From the IMG/VR virus record IMGVR_UViG_3300005527_000080, positions 1 through 48,749 of that record: a DNA stretch of 48,749 nucleotides, one strand, 5' to 3'. This document shows, piece by piece, positions 6,608 through 40,634 of the stretch. The notes below the pieces were generated by a model. It was not told where the DNA came from and did not search any database. It worked only from the letters and a program-made list of their open reading frames with translations. The translations under genes were made by a program, and so were the position numbers. This stretch comes from a virus. How positions within the stretch are numbered: position 1 is the first letter of the stretch; each line of letters opens with the position of its first letter.

Positions 6608-8587
6608 ATGGCTGACATCATTCAAAAACAATTTAATACCGGAAAAAAAGATTTGAAGTATATTAATAAAGATTTCAATTCTTTTCGAGATGCATTAATT
6701 CAATATGCACAGACATATTTTCCAAATACATACAAGGACTTTAATACTGCTTCGCCGGGAACAATGTTTATTGAACAAGCTGCATATGTTGGAGATGTTC
6801 TTTCCTACTATGGTGATTATCAATTAAAAGAAAGTTTGTTAAATTATGCCGGCGAGCGCAAAAATGTTATTGCGTTGGCAAATTATCTTGGTTATAAAAC
6901 CAAACCAACCAAAGCCGCAGTTACTACAATTGATATCTATCAACTGGTTCCATCAATCAAAAATAGCGCAGGAGAATATGTACCTGACAATACATATGCA
7001 TTATCTTTGCGCGAATATATGCAACTAGTTAATAGCGCGGGAGTAAATTACTTAACTACGGATCCAGTAAATTTTGCCGTGGACACAAAAAATTCACCAA
7101 GAGAATCAACTGTATATTCTCGCGATGATTATGGAGTACCACAATTCTTTTTATTAAAAAAATCAATACGTGCAATTGCAGGTAGAATTGTTGTAGCAAG
7201 TTTTAATTTAAATAATGCACAAGCGTTTTTAAATATTCCGCTAAATGAAAATAATGTCATTGATGTATTGGAGGTAAGAGACAGTGACAATAATAGATGG
7301 TATCAAGTAGATTATTTGGCTCAAGATTTAATTTTTTCAGAAGAAGAAAATACGAGTGTAAACGATGGAGTATTATTTCAATATAATAGCGAAGTGCCAA
7401 AATTACTGAAATCATTTATAACTTCACGTAAATTTACAGTCAATACAAATGCAAATAATGTAACATATTTACAATTTGGTCCCGGAACTGAGAGTTTGTC
7501 TGACGAAATCATTTATCCGTCTCAAGAATTGGTCGGCATTGGACTACAAAACATTACTAATTTAAATATTTCGTATGACAGTAGTAAATTGTTAAACACA
7601 AACAGTATGGGTCAAGCACCTGCAAATACTACACTCACTATCAAATATATTGTAGGTGGCGGTGTATTGAGTAATTGTGCCTCGGATGACATTAAAACAA
7701 TTGTCTCAGTGGAATTTGCCACGGATACAAGTGGATTGACACCTTCACAATTGGCATTAATGCAAACTGTTAAAAATTCTCTGCGTGTAACTAATCCAGT
7801 GCCTGCGACTGGCGGCGCAGATTCCGAAAGTGTAGACGAAATTCGTCAAAATGCACTTGCGTATTTTGCTTCACAGAACAGAGCAGTCACAACAGACGAT
7901 TATACTTCTAGAATTTATAATCTTCCGCCTAGATTTGGAACAATTGCAAAAGCTTACGTTGTTTCTAATTCAAATTTAAATGTAAATATCAATAAATATG
8001 TAAGTGGGTTTAGTGATAATATAGATCAAGTTACATTATTGAATGATGCTGTATCCAATTATTTTCGTAAAGTAAACTACGATATTTCCAATCCGTTTAG
8101 CATCAATTTGTATGTGTTAAGTTACAATTCAAATAAAAATTTGACTAGCATTAATGAAGCACTATTATACAATTTACGTAAATATTTAGAAAAATATAAA
8201 CTTTTAACAGATGGTATCAACATTATCGATGGATATATTATTAATTTTGGTGTAGACTTTAAAATATCTGTATTTAACAACTATAATAAGCGTGATGTTT
8301 TGAATATATGTATTCAAAAAGTAAAAGATTTTTTTGTTATTGATAAATGGACTTTTAATCAACCAATTAATATTAGTCAATTGGAACTTGAGATTGCAAA
8401 AGTAGAAGGTGTTCAATCTGTGGTAGAAATCAAGTTTAAAAATTTAACAATGAATGACGGTGATTACTCACCGCATGAATATAACTTGGACCAAGCAACA
8501 TTGAATAAAATTGTTTACCCATCACTAGATCCATCTGTTTTTGAACTAAAATATCCAGATAATGATGTTAAAGGAGCCGTAATATAA
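6608..8587 (+). CDS. 6: Baseplate wedge subunit (gp6-like)
   Basis: This 659-residue protein matches the length of T4 gp6 (660 aa) and has the gp6/J family N-terminus: KDLKYINKDFNSFRDALIQY, then the SPGTMFIEQAAYVGDVLSYY motif near residue 50-70. A mid-region ESVDEIRQNALAYFASQNRAVTTDDY stretch (in parts) is the characteristic baseplate-J-like segment. The protein forms the dimerising ring around the spike and links neighbouring wedges. It follows gp25 directly and ends 1 nt before the next gene. The family is secure. No anomalies are seen. Confidence 0.93.
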   Translation: MADIIQKQFNTGKKDLKYINKDFNSFRDALIQYAQTYFPNTYKDFNTASPGTMFIEQAAYVGDVLSYYGDYQLKESLLNYAGERKNVIALANYLGYKTKPTKAAVTTIDIYQLVPSIKNSAGEYVPDNTYALSLREYMQLVNSAGVNYLTTDPVNFAVDTKNSPRESTVYSRDDYGVPQFFLLKKSIRAIAGRIVVASFNLNNAQAFLNIPLNENNVIDVLEVRDSDNNRWYQVDYLAQDLIFSEEENTSVNDGVLFQYNSEVPKLLKSFITSRKFTVNTNANNVTYLQFGPGTESLSDEIIYPSQELVGIGLQNITNLNISYDSSKLLNTNSMGQAPANTTLTIKYIVGGGVLSNCASDDIKTIVSVEFATDTSGLTPSQLALMQTVKNSLRVTNPVPATGGADSESVDEIRQNALAYFASQNRAVTTDDYTSRIYNLPPRFGTIAKAYVVSNSNLNVNINKYVSGFSDNIDQVTLLNDAVSNYFRKVNYDISNPFSINLYVLSYNSNKNLTSINEALLYNLRKYLEKYKLLTDGINIIDGYIINFGVDFKISVFNNYNKRDVLNICIQKVKDFFVIDKWTFNQPINISQLELEIAKVEGVQSVVEIKFKNLTMNDGDYSPHEYNLDQATLNKIVYPSLDPSVFELKYPDNDVKGAVI

Positions 8588-10600: not shown

Positions 10601-13600
10601 ATGGCATTTCCATACAAAACAATATCAACTAACATTGACAGTGTAAATTCTGGATCGTTTTACGATCAATCAGATTTGGACACAGTTTTATCAGGGTCTG
10701 TTATTGATAAATATTTCGGCACATCTGAACAAGATATTATTGAGTTTTCGGTATATGATATAGACGGAAATTTGCAACTATTGAAAAATGTTCCTGTAAA
10801 TCCGGTTTATAATGTTATTAGCAAAACATATAAAGACGTAGATCAAAATGTGTTAACTTATAATTATAAACAATATAATAGTGGATATATAGTTTCATAT
10901 GATCGTAATATTTTATTTGATACTCTCGCACATTTGAGTTCTAGTAATATTGTAAACGGAAATCATGTTGTTTCATATAATAGTGTGCGTAACATCGGTG
11001 ATGCAACTTATCCGTTGATCATAAAAAATATTTCAGTTTCAAGAAAAGAATTACAACTAATACCATCTTTTAAAATCGATCCGAACGATGAATTACAAGT
11101 ATTAATAAATTTAGAAATACAAGCATTCGCTACAAAAAAATTTTTAATTCGTGATATCGTTCCTGTATTGGTGCAACAATTGGATTCATATCAAATTTAT
11201 TCACAATCAGAAGAATTAATAAAAAATAACAAGCAAACATTTCAAATCATGAAAACTACTTTTGGTTTTCGCACAGATTTGGATGTAATTAATTTTTTAA
11301 ATGAAACATACATTGGTTTTACAAAACCAATTCAAGGCAATGATAATCAGATTATATATGATGTATTTGATGGTATTGTTGGATATTTAAAAAATTGGTT
11401 GTATACATATTATAAAAATGTAGAATCGGCGGCACAATTACAAACAAAATTTCAGTATATTATTAATAAAGCAACTGAAATCCGTTTGCGTAAAGTAAAT
11501 ACATTTTTTGGAACCAACGTAGTTAATCAAGCATTAATTACCAATTTCATTACTAATATTTTTTATGATAATTTCATAAAAAATGTAATTAATCAGATTA
11601 ATATTGATTATCAAAACAAATATTTTAGTTATTTACAAAATACTTTAAATTTTGGTAATAATAATTTTTTGCCAATTTTAAATTATGACGGATATGTTGA
11701 AAACGGAACGATTAATATTATAGTAAAGTTATTAGACTATTTGCCAAAGTCAATCGGTCTGCGAGATCTTTGTTGGATTAGCAATATATCATTGCAGCCA
11801 ATGATACAAAAATTAATTTTAAATGCTCCTGTTGTAAAACGACGTTTCAAAATTGCAGGACCAAATTTTAAAGTTAAAGTTGATGATTACAAATCAAAAC
11901 CGGTTGATTATCAATCAAGTAATGATTTAAAACTATCCACCACTCAAACAACACAAATACAATTTTATAAAAAATTAACTGAATTAAATATTAATTATAG
12001 TGATTTTTCTGAATTTATTTTGTTTTCATCAGCAGAATTGAGAATAAATTTGTTTTTGAATAAATTGTCGAAGATAAATACATTGAAAAACAAACTAACA
12101 CAGTATGCCAGTGCATCAGTTAGTGCGTCAGTAGCAATTAGTAGTTCGTATTCGGTGGATTATAATATTACACAGGGTCAAATTGATACAATTTATAATG
12201 GATTTGATGGTTATGATGTTTATTTAAATTCATTGCCGTCTGCAAGTCTTGCAGGTGATGCGTTGAAAACATATATTAATGAGGCTATTGAATATGATAA
12301 AAATAATTCTGATAGTTTAATTAACAACACACCTGAATATGTTGTAGTTGACAGTGATAATTCAGATTATTTAATCTTTTTGTCGATGATCGGACATCAT
12401 TTTGATAATATCTATTTATATTACAAAAAATTTCCGACATTACAATATGTTGATAATGTAGAATTTCCAACAGATGATTCTGTTTTGACAAATGTTTCGT
12501 CTTCATATCTTTCTTCATTTGCTAATACTTTACTTGAGCAATTTGGTTGGAAGCCAATCAGTTCATTTGATAGTTCTACAATTGCAAATACCTATCTGAC
12601 TGGTAGCAATAGTGTATCAGACGATGAAAAGTTAAAAACAATTTGGAATCGTATTTTACACAATCTTCCTATATTATACAAAACAAAAGGAACTGAAGAA
12701 TGTGTGCGTTTGCTTGCAAACATTTATGGTATACCACATAGTTTACTTAATATTAAAGAGTTTGGAGGCAATAATGTTTCACAAGAAGATGAATCTTCTT
12801 ATGTGTTTGATCAAAAATATTATTTTACTAAATATAAAGGAAATAATGAATCGGTATTGGTTCCAGTGCCAGCAACTTTAAAAACAATCGAATTTAAATT
12901 TAGAGTAGATCCAGAATATTCTTTCACACAGAATATTCCTGTGTATTTAATGACAAATTATAACAATGATTGGAATATTCGTATAGTTAAAGATGTAAAA
13001 GATAAGTGTGGAAAAATTATTGCATCATTTCAAAATACTGATTTAGTGATTGATGATATTCCTATTTTTAATGGAAAAATATATAGCGTTCTTTTGAAAG
13101 TAAAATCTGCATCAGATCAATTTGATGTCGGTGTGGGAAATCCATCATATTTAGAATTTAGAGTTGTGTCAGTAGAGGATGATCGATTAATATTTGACAG
13201 AACTAAATCATTGGTTATAGCATCTACGTTTGCAGATTTGTTCTATTCAAGCAGCACAATATACGTTGGTAATTACACTGCATCAAACAATTTTCACGGT
13301 AATATTGATAAAATTAATGTATGGTCTTCTGAATTAACAGACGAGTCATTTTTAGATCATGCAAGAAATTTTGACGCATATAATAACTACAGCGCATCCG
13401 CAACATATAGTGATTTATATTATAGATACAGTATTGATTATCCAGTGAATTTATATACCTCTTCTGGAATATATAAATTAAGTAATGCAAATAAATATTA
13501 TAGCACTGTAACGTCATCTGTTTATAACTTTTTACAAACGACTACAACAACTGTAAATTGTTCTGAAATTTCAACTTCAGTATTTCCTTATCAATTTGAT

Positions 13601-14686
13601 GAAATCAATACTCGTCAGAATATAAAACTTGATAACGCAGGTCCAAACAAATATAAAAATTTAAAAATCAATAAGGTAACTGAAAATGTAGTTGCACGGT
13701 TGATGCCAAATGAACGTAGCGTTGTATCAAACACCGTAACACAAGATTCTAATTTAATAGGAGTGTATATTGCTCCGTTTAAAGTTAGAGATGATGACAT
13801 CACAAACTTTTTGGGTAATTATGATCTGATGAATCAAATTGGAAGTCCTGTTGAATTATACACAGATCAATATGATTCGTTGCGTATTTTGCGTAATCAA
13901 TACAATACGAATAATCTTGCTGAAAAGGTATTGTATCAAGAATTTTTGACACTTTACAAAAATTATTTTGATGGTTCTTTCTTTACAACCGCAAAACAAT
14001 TGTTTCCGGCAAGAGCAAAAGTTATTGATGGTATTTTAATTGAGCCAAGTATTCTGGAGCGTAGCAAATATCAACATAGACCAATTGATAGCGGTGTAAT
14101 AAATGATTTTAATGTAACTGCATATAACAAAGCATACAATGTATCCGGATCTAATATTTCGATGTTACCTTCCGAAATTTCATCAAATATTGCTAAAAAC
14201 GGACATGAAACAACGGGACATTTAAATAACTATATTAGTAATTATATTTCAGATGCAGACGTATTAAAGCGTCGTAGCGTGTTTGTAATCAATGGTAATT
14301 ATATAGATAGAGATCGTACTGGATCCTTGCAAAATTACAGAACATATAAGTCTACAAATAATCAATTGTTGATTATAAATGATGTCAGTTCAAGCAAAGA
14401 ATTTCTAACATACAATTTTAATTTGAGCGGAAGTGAAACTGCAAGTGCGGATTCAATAGACACTGTCTCCTATCCAAAAGGTCATTTGTCAACATTGAAT
14501 CGTCCATTGACTAGTTTTAGTGTAATTAAATTGGAAAATAAATCAATAAGTTCGTCACTGTTTATCAAATCACAACAAACTATATATACAACCGTCAATG
14601 ATCTCGGCATTCCAGATGGTAGTTTGCCCGTGGAGATTTCTAGTGTAAATAGAGATATAAATCAAATTTCTTTGACAACTAGTTAA
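10601..14686 (+). CDS. Very large tail/baseplate protein (possible gp7 counterpart, LamG-like domain)
   Basis: This 1361-residue protein is the second largest here. The N-terminal ~180 residues are beta-rich and residues ~180-420 are helical. A conserved-looking segment WNRILHNLPILYKTKGTEE near residue 690 precedes a concanavalin/LamG-like sandwich. That sandwich spans about residues 750-930 (KTIEFKFRVDPEYSF at its start, DKINVWSSELTDESFLDHAR at its end). Its place after gp25 and gp6 matches T4 gp7 (1032 aa), the peripheral wedge protein, but sequence similarity to gp7 cannot be judged by eye. The lectin-like fold suggests glycan or surface contact. Function is inferred from position and domain type. 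Confidence 0.72.
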   Translation: MAFPYKTISTNIDSVNSGSFYDQSDLDTVLSGSVIDKYFGTSEQDIIEFSVYDIDGNLQLLKNVPVNPVYNVISKTYKDVDQNVLTYNYKQYNSGYIVSYDRNILFDTLAHLSSSNIVNGNHVVSYNSVRNIGDATYPLIIKNISVSRKELQLIPSFKIDPNDELQVLINLEIQAFATKKFLIRDIVPVLVQQLDSYQIYSQSEELIKNNKQTFQIMKTTFGFRTDLDVINFLNETYIGFTKPIQGNDNQIIYDVFDGIVGYLKNWLYTYYKNVESAAQLQTKFQYIINKATEIRLRKVNTFFGTNVVNQALITNFITNIFYDNFIKNVINQINIDYQNKYFSYLQNTLNFGNNNFLPILNYDGYVENGTINIIVKLLDYLPKSIGLRDLCWISNISLQPMIQKLILNAPVVKRRFKIAGPNFKVKVDDYKSKPVDYQSSNDLKLSTTQTTQIQFYKKLTELNINYSDFSEFILFSSAELRINLFLNKLSKINTLKNKLTQYASASVSASVAISSSYSVDYNITQGQIDTIYNGFDGYDVYLNSLPSASLAGDALKTYINEAIEYDKNNSDSLINNTPEYVVVDSDNSDYLIFLSMIGHHFDNIYLYYKKFPTLQYVDNVEFPTDDSVLTNVSSSYLSSFANTLLEQFGWKPISSFDSSTIANTYLTGSNSVSDDEKLKTIWNRILHNLPILYKTKGTEECVRLLANIYGIPHSLLNIKEFGGNNVSQEDESSYVFDQKYYFTKYKGNNESVLVPVPATLKTIEFKFRVDPEYSFTQNIPVYLMTNYNNDWNIRIVKDVKDKCGKIIASFQNTDLVIDDIPIFNGKIYSVLLKVKSASDQFDVGVGNPSYLEFRVVSVEDDRLIFDRTKSLVIASTFADLFYSSSTIYVGNYTASNNFHGNIDKINVWSSELTDESFLDHARNFDAYNNYSASATYSDLYYRYSIDYPVNLYTSSGIYKLSNANKYYSTVTSSVYNFLQTTTTTVNCSEISTSVFPYQFDEINTRQNIKLDNAGPNKYKNLKINKVTENVVARLMPNERSVVSNTVTQDSNLIGVYIAPFKVRDDDITNFLGNYDLMNQIGSPVELYTDQYDSLRILRNQYNTNNLAEKVLYQEFLTLYKNYFDGSFFTTAKQLFPARAKVIDGILIEPSILERSKYQHRPIDSGVINDFNVTAYNKAYNVSGSNISMLPSEISSNIAKNGHETTGHLNNYISNYISDADVLKRRSVFVINGNYIDRDRTGSLQNYRTYKSTNNQLLIINDVSSSKEFLTYNFNLSGSETASADSIDTVSYPKGHLSTLNRPLTSFSVIKLENKSISSSLFIKSQQTIYTTVNDLGIPDGSLPVEISSVNRDINQISLTTS

Positions 14687-20232: not shown

Positions 20233-20889
20233 ATGGATAAAAAAACCATATTGGAATTAGTACGCAAGGTAAAAAAATTAGCGGATCATGGTGTTGGTGG
20301 TGAAGCGGAGTCTGCAAAGATCAAACTTCAAAGATTATATGAAAAATACAATCTTTCAGACGCTGATTTTGTTGAATTGCAAGAATCTCATAATCGTTAT
20401 TTTATTATTAGACACCAACATGACAGAAAATTATTGTCTAATTTGATTTGCATGATTTTACAAACTCCGTCATTTGGCTGTGGCGAGTCTAAAAATATAT
20501 TGAGAATTAAATTAACGGATGAGCAATATAATAATATTGTTGATGCATATGAATATTATCAAAAAAATTTTGATGATTATTCAATGTATTTGATGCAAGC
20601 AATAATTTCAAGAAACGCAATTGGGTTTATACCAAAACCACAGTCGGCACAAGAACCTGCACTGGAAGTTCCCAATATGAATAGTGAACAAAATAAAGGC
20701 AATAACTCCACAGAATCTGAATTTGACATGATCAAATTGATGAAATTGGCTGTGGCGATAGAAGCAAATCCATGGAAAAAACTTTCTGAAGATAAAAACT
20801 TGATCGAAGCAAATCATTCTGATACAGTGATTCAAAATAATCATGCTAAGACAAGAGACAATTTTGGTAGCACTCAACAAACTGTTTAA
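20233..20889 (+). CDS. DUF2786-like protein
   Basis: This 218-residue protein opens with MDKKTILELVRKVKKLADHG and continues GEAESAKIKLQRLYEKYNLSDADF. That matches the DUF2786 helical pattern: a basic 'I..LLALA' helix, a Gly turn, then 'EA..A...A..L..KY.L...D'. The remainder (about 60-130) is a second helical region, and the C-terminus is low complexity. The function of DUF2786 is not established. It starts 1 nt after the resolvase stop, and its last 47 nt overlap the primase frame, implying coupling to DNA metabolism. Confidence 0.75.
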   Translation: MDKKTILELVRKVKKLADHGVGGEAESAKIKLQRLYEKYNLSDADFVELQESHNRYFIIRHQHDRKLLSNLICMILQTPSFGCGESKNILRIKLTDEQYNNIVDAYEYYQKNFDDYSMYLMQAIISRNAIGFIPKPQSAQEPALEVPNMNSEQNKGNNSTESEFDMIKLMKLAVAIEANPWKKLSEDKNLIEANHSDTVIQNNHAKTRDNFGSTQQTV

Positions 20890-21781
20890 TCAGACAGCAA
20901 AAATCCGTAAAGGAACAGACGCAGTTTATTACTGTCCTCATTGCAAACATTATAAACGTAAACTAGAAGTTAGTCTTACAACAGGCAAATATAATTGTTG
21001 GGTCTGTAATTTCAGAGGGCTTAGTTTTCGCTCCTTATTTAAGAAAATGCAAGCTTCGTCGGAGTATTATGCAATACTGGGAGAAGTCGAACAGATGCGT
21101 TCCGATGGCTCTGAATGGAAAATAAATTTTGATGACTTACAGGAAGTAACTGCAATTAATAGATTGCCGGATGAATTCAAACCACTTGCGATTCCTTCAA
21201 ATACACGCCATTATAAAATGGCGCTCAATTATGTACTTGCGCGTAACATAACAAAATATGATATTCTACGATACAATATTGGATATTGTGACACTGGTTA
21301 TTATCAACACCGTATTATCATACCATCATATGACGTTGATGGTAAGTTGAATTTCTTTTCCGCCCGTGATTATTTGGGATTATCAGGACACAAATATAAG
21401 CTATGTAATTTTTCTAAAAATATCATTGGAAATGAACTGTTAATCAATTTTGATGAACCTATCACTTTGGTTGAAGGACAATTTGATGCCATATCTGTTC
21501 GTAGAAATGTTATTCCATTATTTGGAAAGAATATGTCCAAGAAACTCAAAGCTCGTTTGCTTGAAAGCGACGTACCTAGAGTAAATGTATTGTTAGATAA
21601 TGATGCTTACGCTGACACAGTAAAATTATGCGAGTATCTGGTACGTAACCATATTCCTACTGCTTGGGTTAAACTGGAAGAAAAGGATCCATCACTATTG
21701 GGATTTGATAAAACATGGGAAATCATCAATAAATCTCCCATCATTGAATTTGACAATCTGATTAAAATGAAATTAATATGA
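20843..21781 (+). CDS. DNA primase with zinc ribbon and TOPRIM domain
   Basis: This 312-residue protein contains an N-terminal zinc ribbon (C31-PH-C34 and C52-WV-C55) and a TOPRIM core. In the core E211 lies in TLVEGQFDAISVRR and the metal-binding D252-N-D254 in VLLDNDAY. This is the arrangement of DnaG/gp61-type primases, which make RNA primers for lagging-strand synthesis. No helicase motor is attached, so a gp41-type helicase should be encoded elsewhere. The ATG at 20843 overlaps the previous gene by 47 nt. A TTG at 20864 is the only plausible alternative that keeps the zinc ribbon. The stop overlaps the next start (ATGA). Confidence 0.87.
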   Translation: MLRQETILVALNKLFNQTAKIRKGTDAVYYCPHCKHYKRKLEVSLTTGKYNCWVCNFRGLSFRSLFKKMQASSEYYAILGEVEQMRSDGSEWKINFDDLQEVTAINRLPDEFKPLAIPSNTRHYKMALNYVLARNITKYDILRYNIGYCDTGYYQHRIIIPSYDVDGKLNFFSARDYLGLSGHKYKLCNFSKNIIGNELLINFDEPITLVEGQFDAISVRRNVIPLFGKNMSKKLKARLLESDVPRVNVLLDNDAYADTVKLCEYLVRNHIPTAWVKLEEKDPSLLGFDKTWEIINKSPIIEFDNLIKMKLI

Positions 21782-24700
21782 CAAAGTATTTAAATACAAA
21801 TGTAAAAAAATTTACTCACATAGTTCATGTGGCGGACATTCACATTCGTCTGTTAAAGCGACATGAAGAATATCGTGAAGTATTTGAAAAATTTTATAAA
21901 GAGATAGATAAAACTCCAGAAACAACCGTTGTTGCAATTCTAGGAGATTTATTTCATAATAAAACTGACTTGGTTCCAGAATCGCTTAAATTAGCCAGTG
22001 ATTTTCTGAAGACAATTGCTGATAAACGTACAACCATTCTTATTTCAGGCAATCACGATGCAACATTAAACAATAAAACTAGATTGGATAGTTTAACTTC
22101 AGTAGTTGAACCATTGAACCACCCACACCTATTTTATCTTAAAGAAAGTGGCTTGTTTGTGTTGGGAAATTTGTTATTCAATCATTATTCTGTATTTGAT
22201 GATTATACAAAGTATATTCCTGCGGCTAACATTCCTAAAAAACTAATTAACGAGACTGATTCACGAATCGCATTATTTCATGGTCCTGTTCAAGGTGCTA
22301 CCACTGATGTTGGATATAGAGTGGTGAGTAAAACAGTATCAAATGATAGTTTTGACGGTCATGATATTGTTTTGTTGGGAGATATTCATAAATTTCAGAG
22401 ACTTCAAGAACATAGTGTCAATTATAATAAACCTGTTATTCTATACGCGGGATCTATGATTCAACAGAATCATGGTGAAGCTTTAGAGAAACACGGATAT
22501 GTAATATGGGACATTAAACATCATGAATATACACATGTAGAATTGCCAAATGACTACGGATTTTTTACCGTAGAAATTGAAAAGGGTAAATTGCTGACTG
22601 ATGTAAGCAGCATGCCTAAAAAAGTTACATTAAGAGCAAAATGTAAAGAAACAATTCCGTCAGAAGTAAAATCTTTGATGGCAAAAATGAGCAAAAAGCA
22701 TGAATTAATTGAAATTACATATGATAAAATCAACACAGATGAAGAAAAGAAAAATATCATTGATACTACAAATATCAATCTTATCAGTATTGCATCAAAT
22801 GTTGATTATCAAAATCAATTGATCAAAGAGTTTTTGTTAGAAAAGAAACGCGAAGTAATGACTGAAGAATTGATTGATCAGATTTTTGAAATCAATAAAG
22901 ATGTCAATGGTAAGCTAGAAAAAGAACTTGTTCCTCGTAATATTCGTTGGAAGCCAAAGCGGTTTGAGTTTGAAAATATGTTCTCTTATGGAGAAGGCAA
23001 TGTGATTGACTTTACTACACTCAAAGGATTAATTGGATTATTTGCTGCAAATGCAAGCGGTAAGAGTAGTATTTTGTCTGCATTATCGTACTGTTTGTTT
23101 GATAAATGTGATCGTGCATTTAAAGCGGTTCATGTTTTGAATACACAAAAAATGAGCTTCAATTGCAAATTTAATTTTGAAATTGAGGGAGTTGATTATT
23201 TTATTGAACGAGTTGGTGTTCAGGACAAAAAAGGAAATGTCAAAGTTGATGTAAAATTTTATCAATTAGATAAAGACAACAAAATGATCGATTTAAATGG
23301 CGAGGCACGACGTAATACAAATGATGTTATACGTGATTATATTGGTACATACGATGATTTTCTACTAACTGTATTAAGCATTCAAAATAATAGCGTAGGT
23401 AATTTCATTGATATGGGGCAGGCAGATCGTAAAGATTTGATCGCCAAATTCATGGGAATTACAGTATACGATCAATTGGATCAAATTGCCAAGTCTGAAA
23501 GCAAAGAAATTACTACACTCCTTAAAAATTATAATAAAACCGATTATCCAAAATTACTTGAACAGAGAATTCAGGAAATTGTTGTATTAAAGAAAAATCT
23601 TGAGACTGAAAATATTGAATTAGATAAAGTCGAATCTAAATTTAAATATGAAAATGAAAGATTAATGGAAGAAATGGCCAATATTATAAATATTGGCAAT
23701 GCTCCGACTAATATTATTTTGTTGGAGTCTACTCAAAAGAAGATAATTTCTGAAAAAAATACCTTGGCAGAAAATAATATATCGATTAAACAATTGGTTG
23801 AAAAGTTAAAACATGTCATTGATGCAATTGACATTGAATTAAACAAGTTTGATCTGATTAAACTAAAAACTAATACAACTCATTATGATAATTTGAATCG
23901 CGATCTTCAAAAGATTCAAAATGAAATTGACAAGAAAACCATAGAAAAAGCATCCAAAAAATCAATATTATCTAGTTTTGGAAGTAATATGGAGTATGAT
24001 CCGCATTGTTCTTTTTGCGTAAAAGCAAACAAAAAACACGCAGATCACATCAATAAAACAGGTGAGGAATACAACAAGATTCAGATAGAAATTGAATCAT
24101 TAACCCTTCGTAAAGATAATCTAATTGATGATATTAATTTGGTTTCTGATGTTGTTGAAAAAAACCAAAAAGTCAATGAACTTATTCAGAGAAAATCTGA
24201 TCTGGAAAGAAAATATAATTATGCTAACTCGGAGTTTTTGAAAAATTCCACAAAACTTGTTCAGTTTGAGAATCAACTTCTGACTCTAGAACAAGACATT
24301 ACCTTGTATTATAAACAAAAAGATGCAATTGAGTCTAATAAGAATACAAACGAAAAAATAAAAATAATAAAAGACAATATTAATAAATTAGATAGTCTAA
24401 TAAAGACAGCAACTCGTAAAATTTCAGATTTGAATGGAAAATTGATGTTGGCAAACGAACAAAAAGCCAATTATGAAGAACAAATTAAAAATGCAAAAAT
24501 ATGGGAATTGCAACAACATGCATACACATATTACATGATGGCAATCAGTCGCGACGGCATTCCATACAATCTTATTAGCAAAGCGTTACCGACAATAGAA
24601 TCGGAAATTAATAATATTTTACATCAAATTGTTGAATTCACTGTCAATTTAACAACCGATGGAAAGAATGTTATTGGTCATATCAATTATGATGGAAAGA

Positions 24701-24993
24701 AATGGCCAATTGAAATGGGTAGCGGTTTGGAAAAGTTTGTGTTATCTCTTGCAATACGTGTAGCATTAATAAATATCTCCAATTTGCCGCGTCCTAATTT
24801 CATAGCAATTGATGAAGGATTTGGATGTGCTGATAAAGAGAATCTCAATTCAATGTCATCTCTATTGTCGTACTTCCGCAATACATTTGATTTTGTATGG
24901 GTTGTAAGTCATTTGGATGCTATGAAAGATATGGTTGATAAGCAATTAGAAATCAAGAAAGAGCGTGGATTTTCTAAAATTATGGCCGTATAA
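21778..24993 (+). CDS. Single-chain fusion of Mre11/SbcD-like nuclease and Rad50/SbcC-like ATPase (gp47-gp46)
   Basis: This 1071-residue protein joins two normally separate recombination proteins. Residues 1 to ~385 form a metallophosphoesterase nuclease: VADIH (D20, H22), GDLFHN (D57), GNHD (N92, H93), later FHGP and GDIHKF. Residues ~390-1071 form an SMC-type ATPase. This has Walker A ANASGKSS (K429), a long coiled coil, a zinc-hook CSFC (C744, C747), signature motif MGSGLEKFVLSLA (about 980) and Walker B FIAIDEGFG (D1012, E1013). All key residues are present, so both activities should work. T4 gp47 (339) plus gp46 (560) total 899 residues. The complex resects DNA ends for recombination-dependent replication and can degrade host DNA. 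Confidence 0.93.
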   Translation: MTKYLNTNVKKFTHIVHVADIHIRLLKRHEEYREVFEKFYKEIDKTPETTVVAILGDLFHNKTDLVPESLKLASDFLKTIADKRTTILISGNHDATLNNKTRLDSLTSVVEPLNHPHLFYLKESGLFVLGNLLFNHYSVFDDYTKYIPAANIPKKLINETDSRIALFHGPVQGATTDVGYRVVSKTVSNDSFDGHDIVLLGDIHKFQRLQEHSVNYNKPVILYAGSMIQQNHGEALEKHGYVIWDIKHHEYTHVELPNDYGFFTVEIEKGKLLTDVSSMPKKVTLRAKCKETIPSEVKSLMAKMSKKHELIEITYDKINTDEEKKNIIDTTNINLISIASNVDYQNQLIKEFLLEKKREVMTEELIDQIFEINKDVNGKLEKELVPRNIRWKPKRFEFENMFSYGEGNVIDFTTLKGLIGLFAANASGKSSILSALSYCLFDKCDRAFKAVHVLNTQKMSFNCKFNFEIEGVDYFIERVGVQDKKGNVKVDVKFYQLDKDNKMIDLNGEARRNTNDVIRDYIGTYDDFLLTVLSIQNNSVGNFIDMGQADRKDLIAKFMGITVYDQLDQIAKSESKEITTLLKNYNKTDYPKLLEQRIQEIVVLKKNLETENIELDKVESKFKYENERLMEEMANIINIGNAPTNIILLESTQKKIISEKNTLAENNISIKQLVEKLKHVIDAIDIELNKFDLIKLKTNTTHYDNLNRDLQKIQNEIDKKTIEKASKKSILSSFGSNMEYDPHCSFCVKANKKHADHINKTGEEYNKIQIEIESLTLRKDNLIDDINLVSDVVEKNQKVNELIQRKSDLERKYNYANSEFLKNSTKLVQFENQLLTLEQDITLYYKQKDAIESNKNTNEKIKIIKDNINKLDSLIKTATRKISDLNGKLMLANEQKANYEEQIKNAKIWELQQHAYTYYMMAISRDGIPYNLISKALPTIESEINNILHQIVEFTVNLTTDGKNVIGHINYDGKKWPIEMGSGLEKFVLSLAIRVALINISNLPRPNFIAIDEGFGCADKENLNSMSSLLSYFRNTFDFVWVVSHLDAMKDMVDKQLEIKKERGFSKIMAV

Positions 24994-25003
24994 ACTCTAA
25001 ATG

Positions 25004-25021
25004 ACATATATTTATATATGT
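25004..25021. promoter_or_regulatory. AT-rich inverted repeat with TATTTATA abutting the fibre gene start
   Basis: Perfect 7-bp arms ACATATA and TATATGT flank a 4-nt loop, ending directly before the ATG at 25022. The octamer TATTTATA (25009-25016) is included. It could be a promoter element, operator or translational hairpin. Confidence 0.3.
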
Positions 25022-28000
25022 ATGTCACAATTCCAGACTGGTAAGAGCTTAAGCCGACTTAAAGTAGATGTAGACGACAATTCATTGATGTCGTCTACAT
25101 ATTTTTTAATTTCCGGATTTGATAGCAATTTTGGATTAGGTAAAAATAGTATTATAATCAATAATCCACCTAATGATATCAAGATTGAGGCTTATGATGC
25201 AAATGGTATAGAGCTATACTATGAAAAAGCGACAGATGTAGATATTGTAAATAAGAGTCAAAAAAATATATATTCATTCCATGTTTATCAAAAAAACCCA
25301 ACTGGTATAGGAAAATTGTATATTGTTGGTACTTTTAAAAATAAAGTAGTAAGATATTCAACAAATATATATATTAATAATTCTGTAATTAATAATAGTA
25401 ACGTAGCATTTTATTCAACGCCTCAGATAGAAGTAACACCATTGTTGACATTTGTTACAAAAACAAATTTAAATGAGGCAAATCCAAAAACCGCCACCGG
25501 CTCATTTTACACAAAAGCGGGATATCCAATTGTTAATTTTAATGTTGAGGACAATAAATATAATAAGTCATATACAGACTATCAATTAATTGCTACAAAT
25601 TCTGTATTTTCTTCAAGTTTTAAAAATTTTTATGCGACCCTATATGTCAGTAAAATTAAAAACACATTGACAGGACAGGAGCAGAATGTAAATGCAACGT
25701 CATCAATTTTAATTAAAAATGTAATTAATTCAACGACTTTACAATTAGACTCACCTTTTATTTATAAAAATTCAGCAAATAATAAAAATTCTGTCACAGA
25801 AATTATAGACGGAACATATGAAATTTTATATTCAGAGTATGACTATAATCCAGTATATTTTACAACAGCAAGCTATTTGACGGAAAGTGTTGATTTTTCT
25901 GGAAATGTTAGATACAAAAAAAATTCAATTGCCGAAGTTACGTATAGAAATATTGATACTTTTAGTGGAACTGTTACACGGCATAAATTATATAAAAGAA
26001 GTTTAAATGTACCCGAAGACTATACCACTGTCGTTGATGAATCATTTAATCAATTTGAATATTTAAAAAATTATAATGTTCCTATAAAGAGTTATCAAAA
26101 TTTAGGTAACTTTTATTCGCAGGATTTTATTAATAAATTTTGGTTTACAAGCTCTAATAGTTTTCAATTATTTGAAGACTCACAGTACTATATCAATGGA
26201 CTAAAAATCACGGGATCTTCTATAAACGATGGTTATATTATTGTAAAACTAGATACCACTGGATCTTATCGTGATGCAACATATATTCCATATGATAAAT
26301 ATGAATATTTAGATCAAAGAGGAGCGGCGTATGATTGTAATTTTATTAAATTATTAGGAAAAACAAATTATATTTTAAGTTTTAATTGTAATTTATTAGA
26401 AAAAAATGCGACAGATTCGATGGATTTGTCAATTTATTTAATAGGATCGTATCCAAATAATAAAAAAGAAAAAAATTATAATGAAGTATATGGCGTATTG
26501 TTAGGAAATATTCAGGTCGCGGATGCTGTTATATCTAGAAATTTTAATAATACATTAAAATTTAAGTTTACTCCATTAAATGATTTATTTGGAACGATTG
26601 TAATTGTACCGAGAAAATTTAATAGTTTAATTATAAACAATATTTCCCTTCAACAAGAAAAAATTGATGGATTTAATTATGCTTCATATACAATCCGAGT
26701 TCCATTTCCGGTTGATCAACCAAATGAATTGTTTGATATTAAAGCAGAATTGTTTGATGCAAATTCAAACATTGTGTACTCAAATTTAAGAACAATTCAA
26801 GCATTTGATCCAAGCGGCAGTAGTAGTCCTATTAATAACTTTGATACATCAACAATTACAGTTGGTGTTTTAAATGTATCATCGGAAGCTAATTTTACCG
26901 GTAGTATAAAAGTAAATAATTTTGATTGCTCACCAGCAACTAATATTAACGATGTAGATTACGTAGTAACTTGGGATAATGTTAATAAAAATCTATGCGT
27001 AGCGACTTCAAGTTTGTTTATATCAAGTAGCACGGGTGGAACAAATTTAATAACAGGAAGCACATATCCGATTACAAGCAGTTGGGCAAACAATGTGGTT
27101 TCATCAAGTTACAATTTAAGTTCAAGTTATGCGCTAACAGCATCATATATTTCAAATTTAAATGTAAATGGAAATCTCATTTCAAGTCCAAATACACAAA
27201 CATTTGTTGCTGCGACCGATAATTTTATAAGTTCAAGTGTATCGAATGTACCTTTATTGTTAATTCAAACACAGAGCATTATAAATGTACAAAATAATAG
27301 TGGAAGTTTTAATTTTTACGGTCGTTATTCTGGATCAAACATAAATGTTGGAACGCCGGCTGATAATTATCCATGGGGCGATAGTATGACAGGATCTTAT
27401 TTTAGTACTTGGAACTCTAATACAAATGTATCAGATATCGTTAGATTTTTTGCAGGAGCGTTTAGCGCAAGTTATCCGATACCAAGTCCAAATACACGAA
27501 CTTTTAGCGGAGTAACTGGTACAAACACTGGATTTGGTTCTACTGTAACTATTAATGGTAGAGTTCCATCTGGAAGTACCAACTCAAATATTTTATATTT
27601 GCAGCCGCTTGGATGGGCAACAATTGGATCGACAATTTTTAGTGGTTATACATTTAATAGTGGTGCTGCATATATAAGTTATGCAAGCACTGTTGGTGGT
27701 AGTACAACTGTAAGTTCAAGTTTAGGTAGCAGTGCATTTGGATTGGGGCCATTAACTAGTAATAATATTACACAAGTAAATCTTAGCGGATCTTTTAGAT
27801 TAACATTTGCATCAAGTAGTGCCGGCACAATTAATTATACAAATAATTCTGCATCGATTATTCTAAGTCAATCGACAACTAATTTAACACCGTCAATTGC
27901 CACGCCAATTGCACTTAATACAGTGCCATCAGCAAATATAGCAGTTATTCCTCCTGTTTATCAAGATGGATATTTCAGTAATTTCACTGGTTCTAATTTA

Positions 28001-29368
28001 ACCAATAGTATTGCATTATCAAACATTAGCAGCAGTGGTATCTATGTGTTTAGTGCAAGTATTGGTATTAGTTCTGGTAGTTCAGCATATAGAGTTTATA
28101 CTCCATCCACAGTAACTTATTATTATACACCGTTAACGGATGGCTCATTTACCCAAACTATTACTTCACCAAGTAGTTCCGGTAGTTATATTAGTGCTGT
28201 CACAAGAAGTTTGAGTGGAGCACCATATTTAACAAGCGGATCTAGTTATCGCTATACTATAACATCAAGCGGAGCATTTAATCCATTATATTATAATGGA
28301 ATCGTGTCAAGTGTATCTTTTACAAATGCCACCCTTGGGTTTGTTACTCCAAATAGCTCGTCATTAACTACAAATCCAACTATTCAAACTGCGGGTGTTG
28401 TAAAATCATCAGATTATGTTACCACTCGCACCGTTGGTAGTTATCCGTTTGAAAGTGATGTTGTTGTATTTGATTTGACTCTAAATGCGGGTGGAACAGG
28501 TAGCAATGCTGCAAGTTCAGGTTCGTCATTTTCAACCTTCGCCGTATCTACAACTACATACAATAGAGCAGGCAGCGGAACTGTCGTAGGATCCCAAACA
28601 TACAATGTTCACACAGCAGGATCATTTGGTACACCAGCTTCAAGTGGTAGTTTATTGTATTTTGGAAGACCAGAAGGCTACGTGACATCATCTTTAACGT
28701 TTGGTTCACAATCATTGAATCCGGGTGCAATTACAGAACAGTTGCTGGACGAAGCAAATCGCATCGTATTAGCTGACAATATGTTAAATATGAGCGGATC
28801 ATCGTTTAACAGTGCTTCTGTATTGGCTACGTCATCTTTACAAGTCAAACCCGGATTTTTAGTAAATCCGGGTGGCTCAAATGGTTATTGGTATCCAAGT
28901 GGATATGGTACAACATACAAATATTATGTACGTAGATTCAAGAGTAATGTCGTTGTTAATAAATTACAAATTACACTCACGGGAAATACTTCATTGGTAA
29001 ATTGGGATTCTACTGCATCAAATAGTGTGGCAATGGCTATTTTATTTGAAAGCGCAAATAGTAATGTTTATGCTCGATGCCGTTTGTATGATGTAAATAA
29101 TTTATCAACCAACGTAATATCATCTAGTGTAGCACCTTCCAACTTAAGTACAAGTGGTGTAAATCCATTTGGATCAAATATTGATTTATACGGAAACAAC
29201 GGCACAGGTGCAAGTAACTCAAGTGGTATATTTATATTTCCAACAAGAGCTGCTGACGGTGCAATATTGGATAACACTAATACGGCACAGGATGAAATTT
29301 ATTTACTAATTCGTTACAACGGAAGTCCAACTCCAATTACAAGCATTAAAATAGAAAAACTTTCATAA
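25022..29368 (+). CDS. Long tail-fibre-type protein
   Basis: This is the longest gene, 1448 residues from the ATG at 25022 (MSQFQTGKSLSRL). The in-frame ATG at 25001 would add seven residues (MTYIYIC) and is less likely. The N-terminal ~600 residues are Asn/Tyr/Lys-rich beta structure. Near residue 680 comes a fibre-like run with ITSSWANNV, SSSYNLSSSYALTASYI and NLNVNGNL, the usual register of trimeric fibre shafts. The C-terminal half is strongly Ser/Thr/Gly-rich and ends in a compact beta domain. No enzymatic motif is seen. It probably forms a long fibre or receptor-binding protein, paired with the next gene 1 nt downstream. Confidence 0.75.
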   Translation: MSQFQTGKSLSRLKVDVDDNSLMSSTYFLISGFDSNFGLGKNSIIINNPPNDIKIEAYDANGIELYYEKATDVDIVNKSQKNIYSFHVYQKNPTGIGKLYIVGTFKNKVVRYSTNIYINNSVINNSNVAFYSTPQIEVTPLLTFVTKTNLNEANPKTATGSFYTKAGYPIVNFNVEDNKYNKSYTDYQLIATNSVFSSSFKNFYATLYVSKIKNTLTGQEQNVNATSSILIKNVINSTTLQLDSPFIYKNSANNKNSVTEIIDGTYEILYSEYDYNPVYFTTASYLTESVDFSGNVRYKKNSIAEVTYRNIDTFSGTVTRHKLYKRSLNVPEDYTTVVDESFNQFEYLKNYNVPIKSYQNLGNFYSQDFINKFWFTSSNSFQLFEDSQYYINGLKITGSSINDGYIIVKLDTTGSYRDATYIPYDKYEYLDQRGAAYDCNFIKLLGKTNYILSFNCNLLEKNATDSMDLSIYLIGSYPNNKKEKNYNEVYGVLLGNIQVADAVISRNFNNTLKFKFTPLNDLFGTIVIVPRKFNSLIINNISLQQEKIDGFNYASYTIRVPFPVDQPNELFDIKAELFDANSNIVYSNLRTIQAFDPSGSSSPINNFDTSTITVGVLNVSSEANFTGSIKVNNFDCSPATNINDVDYVVTWDNVNKNLCVATSSLFISSSTGGTNLITGSTYPITSSWANNVVSSSYNLSSSYALTASYISNLNVNGNLISSPNTQTFVAATDNFISSSVSNVPLLLIQTQSIINVQNNSGSFNFYGRYSGSNINVGTPADNYPWGDSMTGSYFSTWNSNTNVSDIVRFFAGAFSASYPIPSPNTRTFSGVTGTNTGFGSTVTINGRVPSGSTNSNILYLQPLGWATIGSTIFSGYTFNSGAAYISYASTVGGSTTVSSSLGSSAFGLGPLTSNNITQVNLSGSFRLTFASSSAGTINYTNNSASIILSQSTTNLTPSIATPIALNTVPSANIAVIPPVYQDGYFSNFTGSNLTNSIALSNISSSGIYVFSASIGISSGSSAYRVYTPSTVTYYYTPLTDGSFTQTITSPSSSGSYISAVTRSLSGAPYLTSGSSYRYTITSSGAFNPLYYNGIVSSVSFTNATLGFVTPNSSSLTTNPTIQTAGVVKSSDYVTTRTVGSYPFESDVVVFDLTLNAGGTGSNAASSGSSFSTFAVSTTTYNRAGSGTVVGSQTYNVHTAGSFGTPASSGSLLYFGRPEGYVTSSLTFGSQSLNPGAITEQLLDEANRIVLADNMLNMSGSSFNSASVLATSSLQVKPGFLVNPGGSNGYWYPSGYGTTYKYYVRRFKSNVVVNKLQITLTGNTSLVNWDSTASNSVAMAILFESANSNVYARCRLYDVNNLSTNVISSSVAPSNLSTSGVNPFGSNIDLYGNNGTGASNSSGIFIFPTRAADGAILDNTNTAQDEIYLLIRYNGSPTPITSIKIEKLS

Positions 29369-32599: not shown

Positions 32600-33532
32600 T
32601 CAGTTTAGTATAGAATAAAAATCTTTTACCATACAATTAATTGTTTTTTCATTTAAAATATAGTCATATGCTGCCTCAATTTTATTTTGATCGTGTTTAT
32701 AATTTAAAATTAATTTTTTTAATTCTTGATTGGATGAATAGATGTTTCCGTATTGTTTCATATCAGTCGCTCCTGCGATATCTCTACTAATCCATGGAAT
32801 TTTGTTGATCATTGCATCTAATAAAACCAATCCAAATCCCTCACTATAACTATTCATTATGTATACATCCGCATTTGCAAGTATATTTAAATAATCCAAT
32901 CGATTATTTATTTTAAAAACTTCTATATTTTTATTCGTTGAAATAGGAGGATCACCTATATATCCTGTTAAAATCAATTTAGTATTTGGTACGTTTAACT
33001 CTGTAAATATATCAATTAAATCACAAAATCCTTTATGAGCACCAAATCCCCCGGAACTTAAAAAAACGAAATCATTATGTGTTGATTTTGTTCCAAAACA
33101 ATCATTCAAATCGACAGAATATCTGATATGTTTAGCTTTTGCTGCACAATTATATTTTAAAGCATGATTAAAATCATATGATGTGCCCCATCCTATTGCC
33201 GTCGCGTGTTTAAAACCATTTATTGCACTTTCGCTATCAGATGGTTTAATTATCCAGTATAAAGTTTTTGCTTTGATTTTTTTAATATTTAATAATGCAT
33301 AATCTTGAATTGGCATATCATTTCCGTGAATGATTATCCAATCATATTGGCATGAAAATAATTCGTTTCTATCATTAATAACTGTGACATTTCCATAATT
33401 TCCCTGACTGCAATCAGTCAAAACGGTTACTTGATATTTTTCTTTAGCCATCGCTTCACTAATTAATTTAATATTATATTCCGATCCTCCATTGTAAGGA
33501 TACGTGCGATGTACAACAAATAAAAGTTTCAT
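32600..33532 (-). CDS. GT4-type glycosyltransferase
   Basis: This 310-residue protein has a GT-B fold of the group 1 (GT4) type. The N-terminus MKLLFVVHRTYPYNGGSEYN carries the Gly-Gly-rich acceptor loop. Near residue 160 comes FVFLSSGGFGAHKGFCDLID, the usual start of the nucleotide-sugar domain. NSYSEGFGLVLLDAMINKIP near residue 235 is the E-x7-E-like donor motif. It probably transfers a hexose to a glycan chain in the cytoplasm. It is the last gene of the minus-strand glycan cluster before the accessory group and follows the split methyltransferase by 13 nt. Confidence 0.85.
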   Translation of the reverse strand: MKLLFVVHRTYPYNGGSEYNIKLISEAMAKEKYQVTVLTDCSQGNYGNVTVINDRNELFSCQYDWIIIHGNDMPIQDYALLNIKKIKAKTLYWIIKPSDSESAINGFKHATAIGWGTSYDFNHALKYNCAAKAKHIRYSVDLNDCFGTKSTHNDFVFLSSGGFGAHKGFCDLIDIFTELNVPNTKLILTGYIGDPPISTNKNIEVFKINNRLDYLNILANADVYIMNSYSEGFGLVLLDAMINKIPWISRDIAGATDMKQYGNIYSSNQELKKLILNYKHDQNKIEAAYDYILNEKTINCMVKDFYSILN

Positions 33533-38525: not shown

Positions 38526-39432
38526 TCTCTGTTAAAACATTATCTAATTTCATAGTTAAATTAGGAAATAAATCTAGACCACTTTTAAAGTTAAGTAGTG
38601 TTTGTACTAGTTCATGTCTAAAATAAATAATACTAGGTTTATTAAATACACCACCCAATAGTCCGGCAAAGCTTTCGGTTGATAAAACATTGGAAGCGTT
38701 GTATATTTGTTTAAATGTGTCTTCTAAATAAAGATCGCCGCACATATTTATGAATATTTTGTTTGGATATAATGGCTGAAGCTTTTCAATACAGCGTTGT
38801 GTCAAATCATAATCTATAGTGCTGCCAACAAATTTATTAACAATTATATTATTTGATTCAATCCAATTTGTTAAATTTGAGAATGATATTCGTTTATGAC
38901 ATTTTGCAAATTTATCAACGTGATGCGGTGAATAATGATGACTACAATACTGCACTATATTATAATTTTCTGTGATATCCTCTTTCAAGAAAGCAAATCG
39001 CTCTTGATAAAATTTAATTATAGCATCACTACTAATAATAGAATGGAAATGATTCCAAAGTTCTAGTTTATTATCTAACATACATTCAATTGACGCATTT
39101 CTTTTAGAGAAATAATGTTTAATCGTGTCTTCTATCTTTTGTCTACTTGACGGATTATCTTTTATTTCATCGGATATACCGCAAATATATGTAAAATCAT
39201 CCAAAATATTCGCTTTTTTATACAATGTCAGTAGTTCTGTATAAATTGCCCATGTTGAATCAATCTGGCCTTCGCACGTAAGTTTCAACTCTATTTGATT
39301 TGCAATATGCAATATTGCAATCTTTCTTAATTGTTTTAACTGTGCGTAGTGATATAATGCAAAAAATAGTCGAGCACCAGCAACAGTGTCGCCGATGCTG
39401 TTTGCATTCATGAAGAAATATCCGATATTCAT
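38518..39432 (-). CDS. Possible glycosyltransferase (GT9-like GT-B fold, uncertain)
   Basis: This 304-residue protein starts MNIGYFFMNANSIGDTVAGA, where the 'SIGDTV' loop recalls the GD(x) acceptor loop of heptosyltransferases (GT9). Near the end, IYNASNVLSTESFAGLLGGV and NKPSIIYFRHE resemble the GT9 'D-S-G-x-x-H-L-A-A-A-x-x-x-P' region in shape but lack its key His. It may therefore be a diverged GT9 or another nucleotide-sugar-binding protein. The operon position between a GT2 and a methyltransferase supports a glycan role. The family assignment is weak. Confidence 0.6.
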   Translation of the reverse strand: MNIGYFFMNANSIGDTVAGARLFFALYHYAQLKQLRKIAILHIANQIELKLTCEGQIDSTWAIYTELLTLYKKANILDDFTYICGISDEIKDNPSSRQKIEDTIKHYFSKRNASIECMLDNKLELWNHFHSIISSDAIIKFYQERFAFLKEDITENYNIVQYCSHHYSPHHVDKFAKCHKRISFSNLTNWIESNNIIVNKFVGSTIDYDLTQRCIEKLQPLYPNKIFINMCGDLYLEDTFKQIYNASNVLSTESFAGLLGGVFNKPSIIYFRHELVQTLLNFKSGLDLFPNLTMKLDNVLTEND

Positions 39433-40634
39433 ATTTTTTCAAAAAATATCATGTATGTGTTATTTACATTTTTTTTAATTATTGTTTTTTTGTAATTGCT
39501 TATAATTAAATTGTCATTATTTGAAAAATATAAAATATATTTTATATCTTTGATATTTGATGGAACTTGTTGATTGTTTAATACTAATAAATCATAATTT
39601 TCATAATTAATATCGTCTAATATTTTACTATCTTTGAATATAATGTTAATTTTATAATTAAATAAATAATTTAAGTGATGTAAAATATCATGTTGTAATT
39701 GTGGTTCATCTCGTATTGTTGTGAACTGAAGTGGTTTAAGATGTAGTAAAATTCTAGAAATATATGCTCTATCAGTTTTATACTCGATAATATTTTGAAT
39801 ATTATATTTTTTAAGATCGATTATTTCATCAAAAAAACCAACGGCATTGTTTTGTGGATTGTGTATATTTACTGAAGAGATTTGATTATTAAGATATTGT
39901 CTTTCAAAATCAAACAAATCTACATCGGATTGTTCCACATAAAAATGTTTTGTATTCAAATGCATATCTTCATTTAGATTAAATGTATTTTTCCACTTAT
40001 ACAAAAAATAAAATAAGTTACGATCTTTGAAATCTGAAAATTTAGTTGTTATCAGTGGCTCCGCAGTGCCCCGTTTATTACCGAGTACTTCTGTTTCTTC
40101 AAAATTGTTTATCATTCTAACCGATTTAAATCCGATACAATTATGAGATATATTATTATTTTGTTTTTTTCTAATTCTTTCAACCATATCAGAATCTTCA
40201 AAATAACATGGCCATATATTCTCATCAAAATATCCGGTTTTTTCAATCCAAGCTGGTGAAGCGATGAAAGCTGCCCAATGATTACACCATATTAAATGTA
40301 TATTATCTTCTTTTAGATTTTTATTAAATTTATCATATATACTTTTTAATGAATCATTTGATGTAAAATAGATATCATCGCATATAAACATTATCGTTTG
40401 ACCCGATGCAATTTTTATTATTTGATTTAGTGCTCTACACGTTCCATAGTTATACGCATTTTTAATAATAGTAACGGGTATGTTTATATTTTTTTTCAAT
40501 GTATATCCAATTCCGTTATCAGATATGATTATTTCTTTAGGCAAGATTGATTGATCTTGCAAAGTGTTTAATAGGTCATCTAAATAGTCATATCGATTGT
40601 ATGTAATTATTCCAAGAATAAAATCGGCGATCAT
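39429..40634 (-). CDS. GT2-family glycosyltransferase with extra C-terminal domain
   Basis: This 401-residue protein has an N-terminal GT2 domain. FILGIITYNRYDYLDDLLNT is the opening, EIIISDNGIG the first acidic motif and IMFICDDIYF the DxD-like metal motif. YFDENIWPCYFEDSDMVERI is the catalytic ED segment. Beyond about residue 285 a second region of about 115 residues (LKPLQFTTIRDEPQLQHDIL and on) is Asn/Ile/Tyr-rich with no family I know. A two-domain GT2 suggests acceptor binding or a second activity. It overlaps both neighbours by 4 nt. Confidence 0.84.
   Translation of the reverse strand: MIADFILGIITYNRYDYLDDLLNTLQDQSILPKEIIISDNGIGYTLKKNINIPVTIIKNAYNYGTCRALNQIIKIASGQTIMFICDDIYFTSNDSLKSIYDKFNKNLKEDNIHLIWCNHWAAFIASPAWIEKTGYFDENIWPCYFEDSDMVERIRKKQNNNISHNCIGFKSVRMINNFEETEVLGNKRGTAEPLITTKFSDFKDRNLFYFLYKWKNTFNLNEDMHLNTKHFYVEQSDVDLFDFERQYLNNQISSVNIHNPQNNAVGFFDEIIDLKKYNIQNIIEYKTDRAYISRILLHLKPLQFTTIRDEPQLQHDILHHLNYLFNYKINIIFKDSKILDDINYENYDLLVLNNQQVPSNIKDIKYILYFSNNDNLIISNYKKTIIKKNVNNTYMIFFEKI

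Follow-up and report, generated by a model that had tools for sequence, protein, structure and literature searches.

The window, meaning the whole stretch of DNA that was analysed, is a virus record of 48,749 bases (IMG/VR). It carries a gene of 1071 codons that reads as a single ORF without internal stop, in the ORF list as in its translation, and that joins an Mre11 (SbcD)-type nuclease and a Rad50 (SbcC)-type ATPase in one chain (Table 1). The last bases of a DNA primase gene overlap its start. The contig also encodes a family-B DNA polymerase, a clamp-loader protein, a baseplate wedge protein and glycosyltransferases, and we therefore assign it to a myovirus-like phage.

Table 1. Coordinates of the fusion gene, of its parts and of the upstream gene (positions in the window)
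Feature	Position	Strand	Basis
DNA primase gene, 4-base overlap with fusion start	20843..21781	+	phrog_47, E 3e-34
Single-chain Mre11(SbcD)-Rad50(SbcC) protein, 1071 aa	21778..24993	+	ORF; Pfam, PHROGs and PDB profile matches
Mre11/SbcD nuclease domain, residues ~12-255	21811..22542	+	PF00149, motif conservation, AlphaFold model
Mre11-type capping domain, residues ~256-317	22543..22728	+	Strand/helix pattern of the model; 3tho_B profile match
Two helices, residues 342-356 and 363-378, at the position of the Mre11 Rad50-binding helix-loop-helix	22801..22911	+	Model
Interdomain linker, residues 379-389, 11 residues	22912..22944	+	Length in 102/103 members; boundaries from model
Rad50/SbcC N-lobe, Walker A GKS 428-430, Q536	22945..23463	+	PF13476, conservation, model
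Coiled coil, residues ~563-923	23464..24546	+	Model helices; faster evolution, dN/dS ~0.1
Zinc hook CSFC, residues 744-747	24007..24018	+	Both Cys in at least 102/104 members
Rad50/SbcC C-lobe, signature SGLE 982-985, Walker B DE 1012-1013, H-loop H1045	24547..24990	+	Conservation, PDB profile match, model

Pfam placed Metallophos on residues 14-205 (E 1e-11) and AAA_23 on residues 398-608 (E 1e-10), while PHROGs returned an SbcD-like family (E 5e-29) and an SbcC-like family (E 9e-46). The ORF and both profile collections thus bear out the uninterrupted frame with two domains that a preliminary description had drawn from the sequence. Searches of solved structures retrieved E. coli SbcC, archaeal Rad50 and several Mre11/SbcD chains, among them T. 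maritima Mre11 (3tho_B), whose profile match covers residues 191-356. An AlphaFold model built from 44 family members has a mean pLDDT of 83 and a low pTM of 0.46, so that neither the relative placement of the domains nor the dimer geometry should be taken from it. Foldseek searches with this model returned C. thermophilum MRN, E. coli SbcCD, archaeal Rad50 and T. maritima Mre11. In the model, a low-confidence stretch (residues 320-332) separates the capping domain from the two helices that precede the linker; by comparison with the T. maritima MR complex as given in PMC3175470, these helices would bind Rad50.

The nuclease half displays the motifs DIH (residues 20-22), GDLFH (56-60), GNHD (91-94), H168 and GDIH (201-204). 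The ligands of motifs I-IV (D20, H22, D57, H60, N92, H93, D94 and H168) are kept in 102-104 of the 104 fused members of the family. The SbcD motifs had been called complete, which is right for motifs I-IV and slightly overstated for motif V: all 104 members have GDIH there instead of GHxH, with the equivalent of His208 kept and Asp202 at the site of P. furiosus Mre11 His206. The complete SbcC ATPase with its coiled coil and CSFC hook was recovered as described, Walker A, Q536, the signature, Walker B, the H-loop and the hook cysteines all being present in 102-104 of the 104 aligned members.

A profile scan of viral contigs confirmed at least 564 of 600 stretches as relatives; the best 80 of these at least 564 were used, a choice that favours close relatives. 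Each scan pattern lay within one domain, so that split relatives could be found as well. Both domains occur in one open frame at 104 of the 112 loci matching the protein (window included), and the single-chain homologues that the preliminary description had proposed to look for also exist in isolated phages. Eight loci are exceptions: L002 and L112 are split, L043 has a stop, L044 a frameshift, and L006, L115, L116 and L117 are partial or distant. Given the split or interrupted genes of the first four, the one-chain form is not universal. Two independent copies, on the IMG/VR contigs L004 and L005, are colinear, 1071 aa long and 92% and 86% identical to the fusion protein. Comparison with them gives a dN/dS of about 0.06 for the whole gene, with a lower value in the catalytic parts (about 0.03) and a higher one in the coil (about 0.1). 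The retained catalytic motifs and this purifying selection agree with the earlier view of a functional-looking rather than decayed fusion, and judging from these sequence comparisons the gene is very probably functional.

Several of the family loci have peculiarities of their own. On the 484-kb phage LR756508, the gene (L002:9977-14202) is split after motif V into pieces of 243 and 861 aa, and the splitting ORF (10698-11615) resembles a zinc-finger homing endonuclease. A distant relative (L112:3304-6544) has its break at a similar point of the Mre11 domain, without an inserted endonuclease and with short overlapping frames. L043 has a single in-frame TAG (7785-7787) where nearly all other members have Gln950; it could reflect a sequencing error, decay or recoding, the last of which is not clearly supported. 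L116 and L117 are short matches to Mre11 only. At L076:5001-9128, an in-frame, intein-like insertion of about 330 residues sits directly at the GNHD of the Mre11 domain.

Contigs related to the window reach 237-304 kb, and the 735-kb uncultured phage LR756501 encodes a fused protein of 1202 aa. A search of plasmids gave only weak matches (about 22% identity), the annotated cases being split SbcD/SbcC-like genes. Origin from a host gene was rejected on a scan of genome contigs, which returned five relatives, most of them on short MAG contigs; two of the five are fused over the compared region.

Could the single frame be an artefact, in which a lost stop or a frameshift, introduced by assembly or sequencing, joined two adjacent genes? 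Genes for SbcD and SbcC usually lie side by side, often with an overlap of a few bases (L007, L010, E. coli), so that a single error could fuse them. However, the preliminary description had singled out residues 385-395 as the place where a stop or frameshift might show, and none was found there; single frames colinear with that of the window occur in L004, L005, about 100 more loci and the isolated phage Mel-JY01, and the linker measures 11 residues in 102 of 103 members. We rejected this explanation on the independent colinear copies and consider it exceedingly improbable. A true fusion gene might still yield two proteins, if an internal start or a cleavage in the linker freed a separate Rad50-like subunit, and the window does have an in-frame ATG at residue 361 with TTG codons near it. 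That residue is Met in just 12 of 104 members, however, and no ATG is conserved within residues 355-395, where 53 of the 104 members have no Met at all, which also speaks, as far as ATG codons go, against the internal start raised earlier. The next candidate, Met401, lies inside the Rad50 fold, and a start there would cost the first strand; no protease or intein was seen at the junction. Production of two proteins is thus very unlikely, although a little less so than an artefact. The length of the linker also fits the one-chain reading: in the T. maritima complex the C terminus of Mre11 and the N terminus of Rad50 are about 28 Å apart, a gap estimated to need 9-12 residues (PMC3175470), and since the linker falls within this estimate, tethering in cis is possible.

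The Asp of motif V raises another alternative, namely that the Mre11 half has lost its nuclease function and become a DNA-binding or regulatory domain. Its presence at the His206 site in every member speaks for this, as does Mimivirus R555, which shows the same changes, GDxxH in motif II and Asp for His206 in motif V (PMC3175470). Against it, all other metal ligands are retained, Asp is itself a plausible metal ligand, and the nuclease domain is under strong purifying selection. Moreover, the split T5-like D12 protein of Vibrio phage Chester also has Asp at this site (GDLH), so that the substitution is not tied to fusion; in the proteins of T4, E. coli and Herelleviridae the residue is His (SGHFH in T4). 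Loss of the nuclease therefore appears improbable, if somewhat less remote than the two preceding alternatives. An ATP-dependent nuclease, acting as an M2R2 assembly, is the activity that the sequence predicts, and the motif V Asp counts against taking the nuclease as proven.

On this evidence it is highly likely that the gene encodes a one-chain Mre11-Rad50 (SbcD-SbcC) nuclease for DNA-end processing in a tailed phage, belonging to the R555-type group of viral fusions. Yoshida, Claverie and Ogata reported such fusions in 2011, from Mimivirus (R555) and Bacillus phage 0305phi8-36 as well as from plasmids, bacteria and eukaryotes (PMC3175470). Together with the large phage family, these cases mean that separate encoding in T4 and in cells, put forward in the preliminary description as a general contrast, is not general. 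The same authors preferred a history with several fusions and made the case that many sequences resembling R555 in aquatic metagenomes were of phage origin, some of the scaffolds carrying phage primases (PMC3175470). To a kind of protein already known in 2011, the analysis adds the constant linker length, the primase partner, the invariant motif V Asp and the size of the family. Of 97 testable loci, 96 have a primase homologue upstream of the fusion gene, 42 of them with the 4-base overlap seen in the window, which makes the primase a near-universal partner. This neighbour, on a contig that also encodes a family-B polymerase and a clamp loader, counts in favour of the end-processing reading. 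Complete genes in their genomic context support the 2011 proposal that phages are a main home of Mre11/Rad50 fusions. According to PMC7824862, practically all jumbo phages have SbcC and SbcD.

R555-like fusions have the same order, Mre11 followed by Rad50, with a capping and helix-loop-helix region and then a short linker. R555 is longer (1351 aa versus 1071 aa), and the protein of the window differs from it in belonging to a tailed phage and in lying next to a primase. Descent shared with R555 would fit the motif changes common to both; R555 itself stands outside our tree, and the matches by fold are to relatives of Mimivirus, Foldseek against viral models having ranked one-chain proteins of Tupanvirus, Yasminevirus, Harvfovirus and Catovirus at the top, over their full length, with 19-24% identity. 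Among isolated phages, the protein WWT39521 of Microcystis phage Mel-JY01 is fused (1066 aa), 36% identical over 99% of the length, and preceded by a primase; it differs in sequence divergence only, and its label, 'AAA domain containing protein', leaves the nuclease half unmentioned. BPT24_019 of Tenacibaculum phage pT24, a very divergent isolate, is a one-chain Mre11 and Rad50 protein of 1310 aa, in which Pfam recognises Metallophos only and the Rad50 half was assigned from visible motifs and a full-length fold match. Thermus phage phiLo_161, also very divergent, has both domains by Pfam in one chain of 866 aa. T4 gp47/gp46 and the Herelleviridae SbcD/SbcC proteins share the two domain families, the CxxC hook and the replication/recombination setting, but are encoded by two genes, have the motif V His and fall outside the main fused clade.

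That clade comes from a quickly made tree with 40 fused and 10 split systems, from which Bacillus phage 0305phi8-36 was left out along with R555. Thirty-nine fused proteins form one group (95% SH-aLRT), and phiLo falls among the split systems on a very long branch. The position of phiLo hints at a separate fusion event, the length of its branch being a caution, and how many fusions took place is uncertain, given the limited sampling and the long branches of the tree.

As to function, we infer a dimeric enzyme with nuclease and ATPase activity and a role in replication. The usual M2R2 machine would probably arise from two such chains, in contact at the zinc hook, at the dimer face of Mre11 and between the ATPase heads, with the linker tying each nuclease to one Rad50. 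As the Rad50 heads bind and hydrolyse ATP, they would control whether DNA ends and hairpins can reach the two-metal nuclease. As with T4 gp46/47, the likely task would be to process DNA ends, both broken and terminal, for repair and for recombination-dependent replication of the phage. Separate MR complexes are already 1:1 (M2R2), and the idea that the covalent link fixes the stoichiometry therefore adds little. With this ratio unchanged, the tether probably serves mainly to spare two subunits having to meet and to fix their local geometry. More speculatively, the fixed linker and the invariant motif V Asp may define a viral MR subclass with a mechanical lock between nuclease and ATPase. Engagement of the heads would then act directly on a nuclease whose metal site is modified, in contrast to cellular MR with its separable subunits; we regard this as unlikely. 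As a model for structural and single-molecule work, an MR enzyme of about 1070 residues with a natural 1:1 tether could be convenient. Current labels such as 'AAA domain', 'DNA repair' and 'endonuclease subunit' conceal these fusion genes.

Elsewhere in the window, two very long ORFs, 10601-14686 (1361 aa) and 25001-29368 (1455 aa), had no match in Pfam or PHROGs. In L004 and L005, the gene downstream of the fusion differs in size (about 650 aa). At least four glycosyltransferase-like genes are present on the window, at 279-1214, 32600-33532 and 39429-42685.
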